In this document: piece by piece, positions 9,213-17,537 of the stretch | How positions within the stretch are numbered: the stretch's first letter is position 1 | Layout of the letters: the number at the start of each line of letters is the position of its first letter | Position numbers and translations under genes: made by a program | The notes under the pieces: generated by a model | The model's input: only the letters and a program-made list of their open reading frames with translations | Databases searched by the model: none | What the model was told of the DNA's origin: nothing | Source of the DNA: Gemmatimonadota bacterium | Lineage (GTDB): Bacteria; Gemmatimonadota; Gemmatimonadetes; Longimicrobiales; Gaopeijiaceae | Direction: 5' to 3' | NCBI GenBank assembly: GCA_012960225.1 | Contig: DUBS01000004.1 | Span: forward strand, 1 to 64,000 | Length of the DNA stretch: 64,000 bases

Positions 9213-12200
9213 TCACGGAATCCGCTTTCTAATCGACTGGTCTGTGATCGCTAACGCGGCAGCAGCATGCACCGCCCTGCGAAGTGGGATGTGCTTCTGG
9301 TTGTCGCGAGTTGGGTGTACTCGGTTGGTGAGAAGAATCACCCAAAGGTCTAGCTCAGGATCGAGCCAGATGGACGTTCCAGTGTAACCAGTATGTCCAA
9401 ACGCACTAGAGGTCAGGTAATCCCCGCCGGAAGACCGCTCTGAGGGAGTGTCCCACCCAAGTGCACGAAAGGATGTCCCGTCGTAGCGTCTTGTGAACAG
9501 ATCAACCACGTCCTGTTCAACAATGCGGTGCTGTTCGAGGCGCGCTACGGGGCATGGCTCTCCCAGACTTTGGGTTGGGTTGCAAGCTGGACTCATACCC
9601 CCATTGAGTAGCATACGAGCGAAGACAGAAAGATCGACAACCGTGCTAAAGAGGCCCGCATGCCCTGCTACACCCCCTGATGCATCAGCGTTCTCATCAT
9701 GTACTCGACCCCATACCAGTTCCTTGCGCCAAAGCGTGTCTAGTTCTGTGGCCGCGATGCGTGGTCGTAGGAAGGTTTCGGGACGGTACCTTGTCTCGCG
9801 CATACCAAGTGGATTCCACAATCGATCAGAAAGAAAGACATCGAGAGACTGCTGAGTGACTTCCTCGATCACCCATGCCAGTGTCATGATCCCAATGTCT
9901 GAGTAGACAGTTTCTACCCCAGGATTGATGTCGAGCATTTCGTCGGCAGCTGCGCGCTTATAGTCATCAACTCCCTGATGGTCGAAGAACCAGCGCCGGA
10001 AAGGTGGCAGGCCAGAACGATGAAGTAGCAATTGGCGCACAGTGATTTCATTCTTTCGCTCGTCTCCGCTGGACCACCACGGCAGATACGAGACGACCAT
10101 CGCGTCGAGGTCCAACCGACCCTCTCCCACAAGGATCATCGCGGCAGTCGTCGTACCAACAACTTTCGAGACTGAAGCTAGATCCCAGAGCGATGTCGAA
10201 GTCACGGGACGCCCACTCCCGTATGCTAGTTCACCAAAAGCACCCACGGATACCAAGCGTCCATGACGCCCAATCGCGAGCGCAGCACCTGAAGCGGCGG
10301 AGTCAGCCAGTGCTACCCTGATGATTGAATCAACCTTAGCAAGTCCATCAGCTGACATTCCTACAGTCGACGGATCAGCTAGGGTTTGCTCCTGTCCGAA
10401 TGGACCAGGCCCTCGCTCACGTTCGACGATGCCAGCAGCAGCTAGAGGGTCCTCGATTGTCCTTGAGACGACTCGGGTCATCACTTTCGGACGATCCAGG
10501 CCCTCACCAATTCTGTGAGCTGGTGGAAGGGGAATGGGTAGTCGACCTGAGATCTTCTCTTCGCCGAAAAGAGCTGCCACGGCTGCGCGTTGCGACACTT
10601 CCCGATCTCCCCATGCGATCAAGTAGCTTCCCACACTCGGCAATGCACGAAGAAGGTAAGGGCTAGCAAAGGATAACAAGATCGTGGGTCTTTGAGTGGT
10701 ACTCCCTTCCACGAGCCCCCTGAAAGCTTCCGGAAGTGCTTCCGGCCCTGAGCCAACTGAAGGAGGCACGTACACACTTACGATGAGCCGATCAGCATTA
10801 GACAGACTATTCTCAGCAGCAGCATAAGCTTCAGGGCTGCTGCGCTCGTCCAATAATACTTGGGTCACGTCTGGCATGCGTGCCAGTAGTCCCTCGGAGA
10901 AAGATCGATTCGCCCACAGCCAGGTCGACGGAGCATACCGAATATGCACGGTCAACGACGGATGATCGGGATTAATAGGAATCAGCCGCTCGTTATCACT
11001 CACGAGGGTGATAGAGCGAGCAGCGACTGAGTCAGCGAAAGCAAGATGGGGACCTGAGCCAACAACCTCGTCCACTGCATCAAGTGATACAGTCCGACCA
11101 AGGTGCAGCCCCAGCTTTGCTTTCATTTCGAGGATTCTCCGGACTGATTCCTCGATCTTGAACCGGGTCAGACGTCCGCTTTCAATCGCCCTCACAACCG
11201 CACTAATCGATGTCGAGACATCCTTTGGTGAAAGAAGCACATCTGCACCTGCCTCCAACGCACGGACAGAAGCTTCACCGATTCCGTAAGCCTCTGTAAT
11301 CGCTCGCATCGTTAGCGCGTCAGTGAATAGCAGTCCGTCAAATCCCAAGTCATCCCTGAGCAACCCTGTCATGATCTCAGGTGATAGCGTTGCCGGCACT
11401 GCATTTGGACCCAATAGACCTGGAAGTGAGACGTGTGCCGTCATGATCGCATCCACGCCTTCTCTGATAGCTCGAGCGAAAGGCAGAAGCTCGAGCGTGT
11501 CGAGTCGTGCTCGGTCCGCTTCTATAACCGGCAGACCTACATGAGAATCGACAGATGTGTCACCATGTCCTGGGAAATGCTTGCCTGTCGTGAAAGCTCC
11601 ACCGTCTCTCGCGCCTCGCACAAAGGCTGCACCCAAGCGAGCTACAAGGTTTGGATCTGCCCCGAAGGAACGAGAAGCAATGACAGGGTTTTCAGGGTTG
11701 TTGTTGACATCTAAAACAGGTGCAAACAATACATGCACACCGGTCGCTCTCGCTTCCCTGGCAGTGATACGCCCGTACTCATACGCAAAGCGCTCGTCTC
11801 CAACTGCACCAAACGCCATAGTGGGCGGAAATGCCGTCCCGCCTCCCTGAGGCAGCATTGAGGGGAGAGCGTACGATCCGTTGATCCTCATCCCGGGGCC
11901 ACCATTCTCGAAGTCGGCCGTAACCAGGAGGGGTATTTCTGCAAGCTCTTGTAGTGCATTGAGCTTTGCAACGTACGCGTGCGGAGTACCGATAGAGGGT
12001 GATACTCCCCCTATCTGATCTTCGATGATCCAACGCTCAAGGGGCTCGAAGTCAGGACTGGAAGGAGAAACATACCCGCCAGGTATCCACTCAATTACAA
12101 GTTGGCTTACAAGTTTTTCAAGTGTGAGAGCTCGAATAGTTTCTTCAACCCACTGGCGGGCAGCAGTGCCGAGGTCACCTATAGCCTGAACTGGCACGGG

Positions 12201-12296
12201 GCTAGCGACACTGTTAGGTCCACACCCCAAGAATGCCAGGATGGCTAGGAGTGCAATCGATAAGCGCCCTTTAGCGAGAATCCTAATCTCTATCAT
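9213..12296 (-). CDS. NagZ-type GH3 glycosidase fused to a serine hydrolase (AmiE/beta-lactamase type)
   Basis: Two-enzyme fusion of 1027 residues. The first part (about 45-400) is a GH3 beta-N-acetylhexosaminidase: the NagZ acid/base loop KHFPGHGDTSVDSH is at 239-252 and the nucleophile Asp326 is in LLFTDALTM. A GH3 C-terminal-type domain follows (about 420-600). The second part (about 640-1010) is a class C beta-lactamase-like serine hydrolase: SVSK at 708-711 (catalytic Ser and Lys), YSD at 798-800, and an HTGYTG block near the end. A hydrophobic N-terminus ending at Cys25 (LAFLGC) suggests a lipoprotein. In Bacillus subtilis NagZ and the amidase AmiE are separate neighbours that strip GlcNAc and then the peptide from muropeptides. 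Their fusion here points to the same joint work. ATG start, overlapping the upstream nagZ by 14 bases. Confidence 0.9.
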   Translation of the reverse strand: MIEIRILAKGRLSIALLAILAFLGCGPNSVASPVPVQAIGDLGTAARQWVEETIRALTLEKLVSQLVIEWIPGGYVSPSSPDFEPLERWIIEDQIGGVSPSIGTPHAYVAKLNALQELAEIPLLVTADFENGGPGMRINGSYALPSMLPQGGGTAFPPTMAFGAVGDERFAYEYGRITAREARATGVHVLFAPVLDVNNNPENPVIASRSFGADPNLVARLGAAFVRGARDGGAFTTGKHFPGHGDTSVDSHVGLPVIEADRARLDTLELLPFARAIREGVDAIMTAHVSLPGLLGPNAVPATLSPEIMTGLLRDDLGFDGLLFTDALTMRAITEAYGIGEASVRALEAGADVLLSPKDVSTSISAVVRAIESGRLTRFKIEESVRRILEMKAKLGLHLGRTVSLDAVDEVVGSGPHLAFADSVAARSITLVSDNERLIPINPDHPSLTVHIRYAPSTWLWANRSFSEGLLARMPDVTQVLLDERSSPEAYAAAENSLSNADRLIVSVYVPPSVGSGPEALPEAFRGLVEGSTTQRPTILLSFASPYLLRALPSVGSYLIAWGDREVSQRAAVAALFGEEKISGRLPIPLPPAHRIGEGLDRPKVMTRVVSRTIEDPLAAAGIVERERGPGPFGQEQTLADPSTVGMSADGLAKVDSIIRVALADSAASGAALAIGRHGRLVSVGAFGELAYGSGRPVTSTSLWDLASVSKVVGTTTAAMILVGEGRLDLDAMVVSYLPWWSSGDERKNEITVRQLLLHRSGLPPFRRWFFDHQGVDDYKRAAADEMLDINPGVETVYSDIGIMTLAWVIEEVTQQSLDVFLSDRLWNPLGMRETRYRPETFLRPRIAATELDTLWRKELVWGRVHDENADASGGVAGHAGLFSTVVDLSVFARMLLNGGMSPACNPTQSLGEPCPVARLEQHRIVEQDVVDLFTRRYDGTSFRALGWDTPSERSSGGDYLTSSAFGHTGYTGTSIWLDPELDLWVILLTNRVHPTRDNQKHIPLRRAVHAAAALAITDQSIRKRIP

Positions 12297-14208
12297 TTCC
12301 AGTCAGCTTTTTTGGAATCATAATCCCGTCCCCCATCTCATAGAGCGGCGGAATCCGCGTGGGCACCCGTCCAGAGATCTCAATTTCACCGAAAAGCGCT
12401 TGGGCAGCAGCGGTTTGGCTGGCCTCCGAACCACTCCAGGCTAACATGTACGCTCGGACGTCAGGGAGTTCGGTAATGAGGTACGGATTCCCAAATGAAA
12501 CGACGATGTGCGGGACACCGATTTCAGTGAGCTGCCCTGCAAAATCGACAACCTCTTCGGGTAACGCGAGCGAACCCGATTGAGAAAATGCCGTCACATA
12601 GGTACTCAAGATCACAAGTGCCTGCTGGCGTGCCTGTCTCAGAAGAGACTCATAGAGAGCGGGTCCTGAATCAACATCTAAACCGGCTGTGGTAAGTCGA
12701 GGATACGTCTGCCTCAGTCGTGCATTGAAATAGCGTCCGGCAAGTACATCCGAGGTTCTGCGAAAAGATACGGACATGACCCGAGCCGAGCGCGTACCTA
12801 GGAGAGGTAAGAGGTTACCGCCATTATGTAGAAGCGTGATCGAGCGCTCCGCTATCTCGGCAGCAACTTGGGTGTGAGCGGGAATACCGACCACCTGACC
12901 GATTTGATCGATCTGAACTACGCGGTCCGTATCCAGGCCCATCTGTTTTTTTGTTTCTAAGATTCGGCGGACAGATGCGTCAATGCGGCTAGCATCAATG
13001 CGGCCAGATTCAACCGCGACCGCGATGCCCTCCACTGCCCTCTCGACTGACGGAGGCATAAGAATGACGTCAGCGCCAGCCTCGATCGCCCTGACAGATG
13101 CCTCTTCTGGACCGTATCCACGTGATATGGCACTCATGTCCATCGCATCGGTAAACAGCAACCCATCGAATTCCATCTCATCACGCAAAAGATCAGTGAG
13201 CACCGCAGATGAGAGGGTAGACGGGTCGCCAACTCCTCCATCCAACGACGGCACAGATATATGAGCTGTCATAACAGCCCCCATACCAGCTTCGATTGCA
13301 TGCCGGAATGGGAAAAGTTCGACGCTATCCATTCGCGCGCGCGAATGAGGAATCGCCGGTAACCCCAGATGTGAATCTATCTCGGTATCCCCGTGCCCTG
13401 GGAAGTGTTTGCCAGTTGCAATCGCTCCGTTCTCCTGAACACCGCGCACGAACGCAGCACCCAAACCCGCAACCTCCTCGGGGTTCTCCCCAAAGGAACG
13501 AACGTTGATAATCGGATTATCCGGGTTGTTGTTCACATCCAGAACTGGCGCAAACGGGATATGTATTCCTACTGCCCGTGCTTCACGTGCAGTAATACGA
13601 CCCATCTCATAAGCGAGTTGGCGATCAGCCGTGGCTCCAACGGCCATAAGTGAAGGAAAGTCCGTAGCTCCGCCCAATTCGATGGTCCCAGGCATCTGGA
13701 CGGCTCCTCGCATTCGGAACCCAGCTCCAGTCTCCAAGTCCGCCGCCACTATAAGTGGAATGTTGGAGTGTGCCTGAAAGTCGTTGAGTTTAGCCGCAAC
13801 TTCAGTGGGCGACCCGACCGACATGATCACACCACCAATGCCCTGGTCTTCGATGTACTCGAGAATCCGATCATGGCTCGGAGAACCTTCGGGCGCGAAA
13901 TCTCCGAGTACCCAAGGCATGATCAATTGCCCAATTTTTTGTCGGAGCGTCAAACCAGTCAGTGTGCGTTCTACCCACCCTTCGTCTTCAGTCTGCGCTA
14001 TTAATGCGGGACCAATGGGAGCCAGCTCAGTCGTGGGCTGTGGCTCTTCAACCTCCTGAGTCGGTACTTCAACGGGGCGCTGTTCTGGTACTACCGGATC
14101 CGGAATCGATTGGGGTGGTGACCCGCAGGAAAACAAAACGACTATCGCTGACCAGCCCGAAATCTTAAGGAGTATTGCTCGGCTGTAGGGAAAGGTTATT
14201 TGCGGCAT
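12283..14208 (-). CDS. NagZ-type beta-N-acetylhexosaminidase lipoprotein (GH3)
   Basis: Second GH3 enzyme, 641 residues, of the same kind as the first half of the fusion gene downstream. The NagZ acid/base loop KHFPGHGDTEIDSH is at 267-280 and the nucleophile Asp354 lies in LLFTDAMDM; FAPVLDVNNNPDNPIINVRS is typical NagZ. A hydrophobic stretch ends at Cys28 (VVLFSC), and a Pro/Glu-rich linker follows (about 30-70), so it is probably an outer-membrane lipoprotein. A C-terminal GH3-like domain (about 450-620) is present, which plain cytoplasmic NagZ of E. coli lacks. The gene overlaps the fusion gene by 14 bases and is divergent from namZ. Role: release of GlcNAc from peptidoglycan fragments outside the inner membrane (inference from family and context). 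Confidence 0.9.
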   Translation of the reverse strand: MPQITFPYSRAILLKISGWSAIVVLFSCGSPPQSIPDPVVPEQRPVEVPTQEVEEPQPTTELAPIGPALIAQTEDEGWVERTLTGLTLRQKIGQLIMPWVLGDFAPEGSPSHDRILEYIEDQGIGGVIMSVGSPTEVAAKLNDFQAHSNIPLIVAADLETGAGFRMRGAVQMPGTIELGGATDFPSLMAVGATADRQLAYEMGRITAREARAVGIHIPFAPVLDVNNNPDNPIINVRSFGENPEEVAGLGAAFVRGVQENGAIATGKHFPGHGDTEIDSHLGLPAIPHSRARMDSVELFPFRHAIEAGMGAVMTAHISVPSLDGGVGDPSTLSSAVLTDLLRDEMEFDGLLFTDAMDMSAISRGYGPEEASVRAIEAGADVILMPPSVERAVEGIAVAVESGRIDASRIDASVRRILETKKQMGLDTDRVVQIDQIGQVVGIPAHTQVAAEIAERSITLLHNGGNLLPLLGTRSARVMSVSFRRTSDVLAGRYFNARLRQTYPRLTTAGLDVDSGPALYESLLRQARQQALVILSTYVTAFSQSGSLALPEEVVDFAGQLTEIGVPHIVVSFGNPYLITELPDVRAYMLAWSGSEASQTAAAQALFGEIEISGRVPTRIPPLYEMGDGIMIPKKLTGNDRD

Positions 14209-14339
14209 CGCTTCAGTGACTCATGGGGTTTGGTTCCCGACGCGTTGACGAGGTTACGTGTGACCACGAAGCTTGCCCCATGAAGCTAGAAAAACGAGGG
14301 CATGATCGACGCGCAATCCTAAGCACCGGTCAAGTTAGG

Positions 14340-15620
14340 ATGACGGGGAAAGCGTCACAATCCTGTATCATCGGACTCTTCTTGGGAGCCGTCCTAACCG
14401 CATGTGGAGCTGCACCGGGAAATACCAATGACTCGGAAGTTTCAGAAAGCGAGGCAAGACAGGTCCGGAGCGGGATCGAAGTACTCCTCTCGGACTCACT
14501 CCATCTAGTCCAGGGACAGCGTGTAGGGCTCCTGACAAACCACACCGGGATCTATTGGACTAGCGATGGCACGGTGGCCAGCACGATTGATGCCTTATAC
14601 GAGGCTAGCAATGTGGACCTCGTGGCACTGTATGCACCTGAGCACGGTATTAGAGGTCAGGAGCAAGCGGGTGCGTCAATCGATAGCGGAAGAGATGAGC
14701 GCACAGGCGTACCGATCCACTCACTGTACGGTGAAGTGCGAAAACCAACCCCTGCGATGCTGGAAGGCGTCGACGTCCTTCTCTTTGATATGCAAGACAT
14801 AGGAGCTCGGTACTACACATATGTCTCCACCATGGCTCTCGCCATGGAAGCCGCCGGTGAGCAAGACATACCGTTCATCGTATTGGACCGACCCAATCCT
14901 GTGCGCGGCGACGTCGTTCAGGGCAACCTCCTAAAGCCCGGGTATGAGACATTTGTGGGCATGTATCCTGTACCGATGCGTCACGGGATGACTGTAGGCG
15001 AGCTGGCACGGCTGTACGTCGGTGAGTTCGGGCTGGAAGTCGACCTCCATGTAGTGCCACTCGACGGATGGACCAGAGATATGACGTTTGATCAGACCCA
15101 ACTTCCTTGGGTCCCGCCTTCACCGAATATGCCTTCGGTAGAAAGTGCACTTGCCTACCCGGGCACCTGCCTATTCGAAGGCACACCGATTTCGGTGGGC
15201 CGTGGGACAGATCGTGCATTTCAGTGGGTTGGAGCACCGTGGCTTGATGGCATCCGCCTCGCTGAATCACTCAACGGCTACGGAATCAACGGAGTACGGT
15301 TCGAGGCAGCCACTTTCACTCCGAGAGATGCCGGAGACCGAAAATTCGAGGGGCAGGAGGTAAGCGGCGTACTCCTTATACCTGAATCCACGGACTATGA
15401 CGCCTCGAAAGCCGCGCTAGCCATGCTTTTAGAGACATACTCGATGTCTGGCAGCAATAATTGGCTTTGGGCCGAGGCTCACTTCGATCGCTTGGCCGGG
15501 ACAGACTCGATTCGGCTCGGTATCGAGGCGGGGTTAGACTTTGCAGAGCTGACCTCTGCATGGGACTCGGAGACTCAAGCTTTTGAGCAGCTCAGAGCTC
15601 CATATTTGATTTATCGCTAA
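14340..15620 (+). CDS. namZ: NamZ-like exo-beta-N-acetylmuramidase lipoprotein (DUF1343)
   Basis: Member of DUF1343, whose Bacillus subtilis member NamZ (YbbC) cuts MurNAc from the non-reducing end of MurNAc-GlcNAc. Conserved blocks seen are YAPEHGIRG, DVLLFDMQDIGARYYTY, LDRPNPV, and PWVPPSPNMPS followed by YPGTCLFEGT and SVGRGTDRAF. The frame is open from 14223, but a start at 14340 gives a clean lipoprotein signal (IIGLFLGAVLTAC) of normal length; starts at 14223 and 14280 are alternatives, and none has a good ribosome-binding site. It is divergent from two NagZ-type genes. In Bacillus nagZ, amiE and namZ form one cluster, so the assignment to peptidoglycan-sugar salvage is well supported. 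A perfect hairpin follows about 110 bases after the stop. Confidence 0.88.
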   Translation: MTGKASQSCIIGLFLGAVLTACGAAPGNTNDSEVSESEARQVRSGIEVLLSDSLHLVQGQRVGLLTNHTGIYWTSDGTVASTIDALYEASNVDLVALYAPEHGIRGQEQAGASIDSGRDERTGVPIHSLYGEVRKPTPAMLEGVDVLLFDMQDIGARYYTYVSTMALAMEAAGEQDIPFIVLDRPNPVRGDVVQGNLLKPGYETFVGMYPVPMRHGMTVGELARLYVGEFGLEVDLHVVPLDGWTRDMTFDQTQLPWVPPSPNMPSVESALAYPGTCLFEGTPISVGRGTDRAFQWVGAPWLDGIRLAESLNGYGINGVRFEAATFTPRDAGDRKFEGQEVSGVLLIPESTDYDASKAALAMLLETYSMSGSNNWLWAEAHFDRLAGTDSIRLGIEAGLDFAELTSAWDSETQAFEQLRAPYLIYR

Positions 15621-15730: not shown

Positions 15731-15775
15731 AGAAGAAACGGCACAATGCCAATTAAGCATTGTGCCGTTTCTTCT
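15731..15775. terminator. Perfect 19-bp hairpin, likely bidirectional terminator
   Basis: AGAAGAAACGGCACAATGC at 15731-15749 pairs without mismatch with 15757-15775 around a seven-base loop. The 3' arm on both strands ends in a T-rich TTTCTTCT. It stands between two convergent units, namZ (+) and the small membrane protein pair (-), as expected of a shared terminator. There is no separate long T tract beyond the stem. Confidence 0.8.
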
Positions 15776-15816
15776 AGATCCTAGGGCAAGATGCCAAGGA
15801 ACTAAAACTAAAAGCT

Positions 15817-16041
15817 CTAGCCTCGCCGATACAAAACGAGGAATAGCAACACGACGATCAAGCCCGCTACACCCTGGTCACCGAACTGTCCGACGACTTC
15901 GGCGAGGTTCTGAGTTATGTAGGAAGAACTCGGGTAGAGGATATCGACCACAATGAGCGCCGTGATGAGCGTGAGACCGAAGTCCGTTAATGACTTCGCC
16001 CAGCCACCGACAGTGCTGAGGGCTCCCATGATAGGCTCCAT
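15817..16041 (-). CDS. Small two-helix membrane protein B (unknown function)
   Basis: A 74-residue hydrophobic protein I cannot assign. It has two likely membrane segments (LTLITALIVVDILY at about 23-36 and VAGLIVVLLFLVLY at about 58-71) joined by a polar stretch with NLAEVVGQFGDQG, and ends in a basic YRRG. It is clearly paralogous to the upstream neighbour: both share the order G..AK, GL.LI, DI.YP, NL, then GLIV.LL. The ATG is six bases after AAGGAGG, a near-ideal ribosome-binding site, and a perfect terminator hairpin lies just downstream, so it is probably well expressed. The gap to the upstream paralog is 60 bases, which suggests one transcript. Confidence 0.8.
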   Translation of the reverse strand: MEPIMGALSTVGGWAKSLTDFGLTLITALIVVDILYPSSSYITQNLAEVVGQFGDQGVAGLIVVLLFLVLYRRG

Positions 16042-16101
16042 ACTGCGCCTCCTTATGTGTTAAAAAGGTCTTAAGAGACAACTACAGAAGTAAGGAGACG
16101 C

Positions 16102-16317
16102 CTAGTCGACGATCGCTAGGACCAACAGCAAGACGATAAGGCCGTTGAGGCCTGCACCTGTAAAGCTTTCAACAAAATCTCCCAGATTCGCGACGATATC
16201 CGTTGTCCCTGGGTAGAAAATATCAGCAACAAGGGCCACCGGAATAAGGGCTAAGCCCAACCCGACTATGCCTTTCGCAAGATTTCCTAACCCAGCTAGC
16301 GCGGAATTGATGTTCAT
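16102..16317 (-). CDS. Small two-helix membrane protein A (unknown function)
   Basis: A 71-residue hydrophobic protein, paralog of the gene just downstream. Two hydrophobic segments (about 13-34, GLGNLAKGIVGLGLALIPVA onwards, and 56-70, NGLIVLLLVLAIV) flank an acidic loop containing NLGDFVESFTGAG. The ATG lies behind AGGAGGGTG, again a very strong ribosome-binding site. Both proteins keep a D-I-[FL]-Y-P motif at the end of helix 1. Topology is loosely like that of VirB2-type pilins or filamentous-phage coat proteins, but no secretion or phage genes are nearby, so no function is proposed. The gene is first in a probable two-gene transcript that ends at the 15731 hairpin. Confidence 0.8.
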   Translation of the reverse strand: MNINSALAGLGNLAKGIVGLGLALIPVALVADIFYPGTTDIVANLGDFVESFTGAGLNGLIVLLLVLAIVD

Positions 16318-16361
16318 TTACACCCTCCTGTCAGAGCAGATTCTGTGAAATCCGTTACATA

Positions 16362-16391
16362 AAATTACTCTGTATTGCGGCTTAACCGCAA
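16362..16391 (-). promoter_or_regulatory. Possible sigma70 promoter with palindrome over -35
   Basis: On the minus strand TTGCGG (16391-16386) is followed after 18 bases by TAATTT (16367-16362), about 45 bases upstream of the small protein A start. The -35 is one arm of a palindrome, TTGCGG-5-CCGCAA, at 16375-16391, which could be an operator. Found by eye only. Confidence 0.35.
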
Positions 16392-16502: not shown

Positions 16503-17537
16503 TTAGCGGGTCGGGAATCGGAATTCAGTCCACAATTCAGGCTTCCACCACTCGCCATCAAATACCCGCTCTAACCGGCTCTCGAAGTGAGCAAAATTCG
16601 AGAGTGGATCAGCTGGCGATACTGGAGGTGAGAAAAAGTTCTCCCAGTGTCCCATGAGCACACGTTGAGGTTGGAGATTCTCGACAAATGCTTCCGGATG
16701 CCAATCGACCTGATCGAATGTCGCGGGCACAAGGATTGCTGCATCAACAGATCGCTCACGAATAACCGCTTCTGGAGCAAAGCCAAGAGGTGGCGGTGCC
16801 ACTGCATCCTGGTAGTAGATACGGAAGGCTACTGACTCGTCAGCGTTGAGGAAGTCAATCAAATACGCGTGTGTTGTGCCGTCCAGCCACTCCGTCGCCC
16901 AACGCGGCTCTGTGGTCAAGGCACGAACACGAGTTCCCTGGAAGAGTGTGTAACCCTCAAAGTGAGGGGCATGAAACGAACGGAGCGCCATAACACGAAC
17001 ACCTGGTCCATAGCTTAGCCACGTTCCGACTGTTCTCTGGTCACCCGCGATATCGTTGACTTCGTCTACACGCTCTCCAACACCTGACCAGCTACCCAAC
17101 GTGTTCTTCACCGTTCTGCTACCAACGATACGAGCACGGGGAGCGTGTTCTAATGCAACTCGGGGAACGTCCATTAGGTGGTCATAGTGTGCGTGGCCAA
17201 CCAAAATCACATGGGCCTCTGACACGTCATAACGAGACATGAACTCGTCAACGACATCCGAGTCGGATCGAATCGGCAATAAGCCAGTCTTCACCAACCC
17301 CGGATTAGAGAAGAATGGGGCCGCGATGACTTGATCATCCCCTCGCTCGAAAATCCAACCCCCGGTCCCGAGATAGATCAATCGCACTCCATCCTCAGAA
17401 GCAGCTGACTGATCGATGACCCCAGAAACAGTTGGGGCTGCAGTGGCACAACCGGTAGTTGAGCTTACAGACCAACAGAAAACTCCAATCAGTAGAGAGC
17501 GCCAACAGGGCGCAGAAAACCTTCGGATTTTTCTCAC
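16503..17537 (-). CDS. Metallo-beta-lactamase-fold lipoprotein
   Basis: Zinc hydrolase of the metallo-beta-lactamase superfamily, 344 residues, substrate unknown. The main metal motif GHAHYDHLMD is present, with further histidines in HAPHFEGY and in MGHWENF near the C-terminus. The arrangement is closer to the UlaG/NAPE-PLD-like branch than to true beta-lactamases. The N-terminus is basic, then hydrophobic, and ends in SSTTGC, a plausible lipobox, so it is probably a lipoprotein. The GTG start overlaps the asparaginase stop (TAGTG), which indicates coupling. The three-gene set (aminotransferase, asparaginase, this protein) suggests amino-acid or D-amino-acid related metabolism, but nothing shows what it cleaves. 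Confidence 0.82.
   Translation of the reverse strand: MRKIRRFSAPCWRSLLIGVFCWSVSSTTGCATAAPTVSGVIDQSAASEDGVRLIYLGTGGWIFERGDDQVIAAPFFSNPGLVKTGLLPIRSDSDVVDEFMSRYDVSEAHVILVGHAHYDHLMDVPRVALEHAPRARIVGSRTVKNTLGSWSGVGERVDEVNDIAGDQRTVGTWLSYGPGVRVMALRSFHAPHFEGYTLFQGTRVRALTTEPRWATEWLDGTTHAYLIDFLNADESVAFRIYYQDAVAPPPLGFAPEAVIRERSVDAAILVPATFDQVDWHPEAFVENLQPQRVLMGHWENFFSPPVSPADPLSNFAHFESRLERVFDGEWWKPELWTEFRFPTR

Follow-up and report, generated by a model that had tools for sequence, protein, structure and literature searches.

Two small paralogous membrane proteins encoded side by side in Gemmatimonadota and Fidelibacterota (SAR406)

Are two very short neighbouring genes in a gemmatimonad genome real, and what might their products do? 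The question is raised by a window of 64,000 nucleotides (the whole stretch of DNA analysed here), which lies in a 2.6-Mb genome of the phylum Gemmatimonadota. Gene A (16102..16317, minus strand) encodes a membrane protein of 71 aa that starts with MNINSALAGLGNLAKG, contains DIFYPGTT and ends in an acidic C-terminus, GLNGLIVLLLVLAIVD. Gene B (15817..16041, minus strand) encodes a paralog of 74 aa that starts with MEPIMGALSTVGGWAKS, contains DILYPSSS and ends in a basic C-terminus, GVAGLIVVLLFLVLYRRG. Both are open reading frames with homologs elsewhere, and 60 bp separate them in the sequence of the window. A preliminary description had presented them as paralogous small genes 60 bases apart with a common D-I-[FL]-Y-P motif, and both the coordinates and the motif (DIFYP in A, DILYP in B) were confirmed in the sequence.

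A and B are real genes. The genus has four other sequenced genomes, and each of them carries both genes at this site. Synonymous change exceeded non-synonymous change in 20 of 20 within-genus comparisons, which indicates purifying selection; dN/dS was 0.07–0.41 in 18 of them, while the closest species pair gave 0.48 for A and 0.72 for B. Thus a coding signal (dN/dS below 1 within the genus) was found, together with homologous pairs in a second phylum. Towards the nearest species, A and B retain 82–85% identity, as against about 95–98% for the flanking genes, so change is faster in the pair than in the genes around it.

The earlier picture of a self-contained unit with good expression signals is supported. 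The Shine-Dalgarno (SD) sites described as strong are present on the minus strand, AGGAGGGTG for A (16321..16329, anti-SD dG -10.8) and AAGGAGG for B (16048..16054, dG -12.2). These energies would place both genes in the top 5 of the 41 genes of the window, in a comparison that favoured the other genes, and the median SD dG across loci is -11.4 for A and -9.4 for B. Downstream of B lies a terminator hairpin (minus strand, 15731-15749 / 15757-15775), seen as a self-match on the opposite strand, whose perfect 19-bp stem was verified with 19 of 19 pairs and a 7-base loop; a hairpin is kept at this place in 5 of 5 genus members. It may also be used by the convergent gene at 14223-15620. The Rfam search of the locus gave no match at gathering score, and a match to mir-1252 at the terminator was rejected as chance similarity on a palindrome. 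Upstream of A, a candidate minus-strand promoter (16362..16391) would consist of TTGCGG (16391-16386), a spacer of 18 nt and TAATTT (16367-16362); the consensus promoter scan did not detect it. The palindrome reported over the -35 box does exist (16375-16391). Its left arm is conserved in all five species, but it is complete in only three of the five and is thus not a conserved operator; judging from this alignment, it is probably a chance feature above a conserved TTGCGG -35 element.

Between the two genes, folding predicts a stem on the minus strand. The 5' arm GCGTCTCCTTA (16091..16101), immediately after the stop codon of A, is complementary to the SD of B, and the 3' arm TAAGGAGGCGC (16045..16055) contains that SD. 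GTCTCC and AGGAGGC are invariant in the five species, while the stretch between them varies and has indels, and the predicted probability that the B SD is unpaired is at most 0.04 in 5 of 5 species. In-silico deletion of the post-stop arm frees the B SD only partly (0.01–0.45), and because of this partial opening we put forward translational coupling in the window's genus as a hypothesis: a ribosome finishing A would open the sequestering stem, and translation of B would be tied to that of A. In Fidelibacterota, most loci have stable hairpins between A and B, with z down to -6.6 against mononucleotide shuffles, and a hairpin downstream of B is common across loci. In addition, one large Fidelibacterota clade shows a terminator-like hairpin with a T-run about 50–65 nt before A, downstream of the likely promoter and just ahead of the SD (L038, L039, L040, L041, L062, L065, L077, L078, L080, L083, L102, L104 and L111). 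It occurs in many, not all, loci of the clade, has no Rfam match, and could act as an attenuator or leader RNA.

How widely is the pair distributed? In Gemmatimonadota the family was found in only 7 of 395 genomes and 3 of 138 genera. Besides the window's genus, two members of the phylum (one of another genus, one of another family) have the pair in another gene context; their record names (SZUA-1190 and an ERR599156 metagenome bin) suggest a marine origin. The same scan also found pairs in Candidatus Neomarinimicrobiota. SAR406 corresponds to Marinimicrobia, now named Fidelibacterota (PMC11652737). In this phylum, 141 of 245 genomes gave matches, one of them weak and spurious, so that about 140 genomes contain the pair. 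Two family members were found in 126 of the matching genomes, four in 8, three in 4 and one in 3. The pair is retained in SAR406 genomes as small as 0.7–1.0 Mb. About 128 further genomes, from relatives beyond the 245, added a single match, the weak one in G784, which falls inside a 648-aa frame and was discarded as spurious.

Among the Fidelibacterota genomes, the pair is present in 118 of 164 with a haem-copper oxidase and in 22 of 81 without one (Fisher p 4e-11, a test that ignores ancestry, with noise added by MAG incompleteness). This association shows only that the pair accompanies aerobic-type lineages, and it may be a mere reflection of ancestry. The genomes of two consecutively numbered runs, G434-G455 and G627-G651, nearly all lack both the pair and the oxidase, and are probably anaerobic lineages. 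The enrichment is also what would be expected if A and B were accessory subunits of a larger membrane complex of respiration or ion transport, forming a small stabilising dimer, as small hydrophobic proteins often are. We consider this unlikely, though worth keeping in mind: no enzyme is conserved beside the pair, the 22 pair-bearing genomes without oxidase include one with a 3.4-Mb contig, and an accessory peptide would not usually take the form of two paralogs with separate SDs.

Wherever a locus was read at sequence level, the two genes share a strand, with A first and B 6–152 bp behind it; whether homologs come in pairs had been left as a check, and they do so, as A-B pairs, in both Gemmatimonadota and Fidelibacterota. 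Several genomes carry a second A-B pair, and in one locus (L092:8687-9767) the pair occurs twice, identical and in tandem, near a contig end. The two subtypes differ at the C-terminus, whose net charge is at least +1 in 44 of 44 B sequences and below that in 35 of 42 A sequences. In a tree of 86 sequences, which with 73 columns has limited resolution, the gemmatimonad As group together and so do the gemmatimonad Bs, and the As branch with those of one Fidelibacterota clade (97/93). This placement implies that the pair travelled or descended jointly. The simplest reading of these sequences would be an old duplication, followed later by joint transfer or descent of the A-B operon.

The preliminary description gave both proteins a two-helix plan, which had to be revised, as AlphaFold2 predicts three helices in each: residues 3-34, 41-53 and 57-70 in A (pLDDT 87.5), and residues 2-35, 42-54 and 58-73 in B (pLDDT 83.3). 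The pTM of the models is about 0.5, so the packing of the helices is uncertain. The first helix is long, the middle one amphipathic, and the last a short second membrane helix; hydrophobic stretches of 19 residues lie in the first and last helices. Full invariance across the family is confined to glycines that precede or lie in the last helix, one Phe and one Leu position being nearly invariant, and the exposed loop of the window's lineage carries D-[IVL]-[FL]-x-P. We infer that both ends of each protein are cytoplasmic, on the basis of the basic C-termini of B and of a proline/serine/tyrosine-rich N-terminal extension of A in L019 and L036. This extension is in frame and was seen in two Gemmatimonadota (L036:7588-7720, MTESTPPYGSDSS; L019:6669-6786, MNESPFGSDPPPP). 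The extension comes with a separate GGAGG site, while an internal AAGGAG precedes the usual start; A is possibly a dual-start gene there.

The same structural features bear on a pore-forming role, which the preliminary description had listed and which is possible. A ring of A and B could form a small channel, or a mechanosensitive or osmotic valve, and the marine habitat, the different C-terminal charges of the paralogs, the glycine-rich second helix and the amphipathic helix would suit such a device. However, the charged residue that might line a pore is not conserved (where the first membrane helix has its Asp, family members show D, N or G) and there is no relative with a solved structure, so that we regard a channel as rather improbable.

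The view that the family is unrecognised and that the neighbourhood does not explain it has held. Neither A nor B matched anything above cut-off in Pfam, NCBIfam, PHROGs or PDB sequences. Foldseek searches with the model of A against PDB and viral models gave nothing significant, short helical folds being hard to search. No description of the family was found in the literature; PMC10849945, which deals in general terms with unknown families of uncultivated taxa, does not name the phylum in its main text. The pair, its function included, therefore appears undescribed. Its neighbours are conserved within clades and differ between clades: one clade has glycosyltransferase, amidase and MurI-like racemase genes, a second has YajC-def-fmt, and the remaining loci have others. 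The neighbourhood was accordingly dropped as a guide to function. In the window, A is flanked on its 5' side by a 344-aa gene without Pfam match (16503-17537, minus strand), and B by a NamZ-type muramidase gene (14223-15620, plus strand). The latter belongs to a cell-wall-recycling-like cluster (9213-15620) adjoining the pair, which also includes a GH3 protein (12283-14208) and a second GH3-like protein fused to a beta-lactamase-like part (9213-12296); the Pfam check covered the NamZ exo-muramidase and 12283-14208. A peptidoglycan theme (NamZ and GH3 here, amidase and MurI-like genes in one SAR406 clade) was considered and rejected, as the neighbours vary between clades.

Taken as a whole, the observations are best accommodated, at a probability of roughly 0.4, by an abundant membrane assembly of A and B with a structural or permeability-related role. 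An abundant structural role was also among the preliminary suggestions, and judged from the sequences it is our best guess. The two-gene operon would produce two ancient paralogous hairpin membrane proteins that act together, each inserted in the cytoplasmic membrane and probably facing the cytoplasm with both its ends. The long first helix would begin with an amphipathic part and continue as a transmembrane part. After a short exposed loop, a middle amphipathic helix would lie along the surface of the membrane, and the second membrane helix (GxxGL) would be short and rich in glycine. The single operon, the strong SDs and the RNA hairpins, joined in the window's genus by the predicted coupling, could together provide A and B in large and set amounts. 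The two proteins would then most likely join in an abundant hetero-oligomer that shapes or stabilises the inner membrane or tunes its permeability, in hosts that would be mostly aerobic marine FCB bacteria. The fast evolution of A and B relative to their neighbours is unusual for a tightly packed complex and counts against this assembly. Since no structural relative was found, a scaffold, a channel and an accessory subunit are not told apart.

SAR406/Fidelibacterota are widespread in the ocean and have very few cultured members. More than half of their sequenced genomes carry this pair, which is absent from the family databases searched, and the pair is a good candidate for a lineage-specific cell-envelope feature of the phylum. 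A bolder version, which we offer tentatively, is that A and B form a hallmark two-component assembly of SAR406, made in set high amounts, that the operon was passed to or from marine Gemmatimonadota, and that the product is a new kind of hetero-oligomeric scaffold or channel. Both proteins are small enough to be expressed and solved.

Comparison with known systems also bears on the suggestion of a toxin-like role, which was not borne out. A two-peptide bacteriocin, a toxin or a holin would likewise consist of small membrane peptides, paired as A and B are, and phage holins share with them a short chain with two membrane helices; one weak PHROG holin match was obtained. However, A and B occupy a common, conserved chromosomal locus, kept even in the reduced SAR406 genomes, and have no relatives in phages, plasmids or viral contigs. 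Among the checked neighbours, no phage genes were identified, no antitoxin partner is conserved beside the pair, immunity and ABC export genes, as expected for class IIb bacteriocins, were not recognised beside the compared loci, and no leader peptide is visible by eye in the alignments, where A and B begin directly with the first helix. We thus find this explanation barely credible.

Pilin-like subunits of a secretion or surface structure, of the VirB2/TrbC kind, are also small proteins with two membrane helices. Weak matches to TrbC (Pfam PF04956) in 7 of 42 A members (best E 2.8e-4, below cut-off) and to TrbL in 4 of 44 B members point in this direction, but such a function is very unlikely. 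The window's own A and B match no TrbC/VirB2 profile, its genome contains no TrbC match, searches of PDB with the family profiles found no pilin, and A and B differ from these proteins in lacking a leader and in always forming a paralogous pair; no secretion genes were seen among the neighbours.

ATP synthase subunit c, a membrane hairpin of about 70 aa, is close to A and B in size and in its hairpin form. It differs in that A and B are a paralogous pair with no similarity found to it, and the conserved Asp/Glu of its second helix is absent from the A and B alignments. The light-harvesting alpha/beta proteins encoded by pufBA differ as well, for A and B have two membrane segments each and no sequence or fold match to them, and the pigment-binding histidine is not conserved (2 His in 42 A and 4 in 44 B sequences). 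Nevertheless, pufBA comprises adjacent genes for small membrane proteins, with strong ribosome sites and flanking RNA hairpins that go with a high dosage, and the A-B operon resembles it in the adjacent genes, the ribosome sites, the hairpins and, as we would expect, the dosage.
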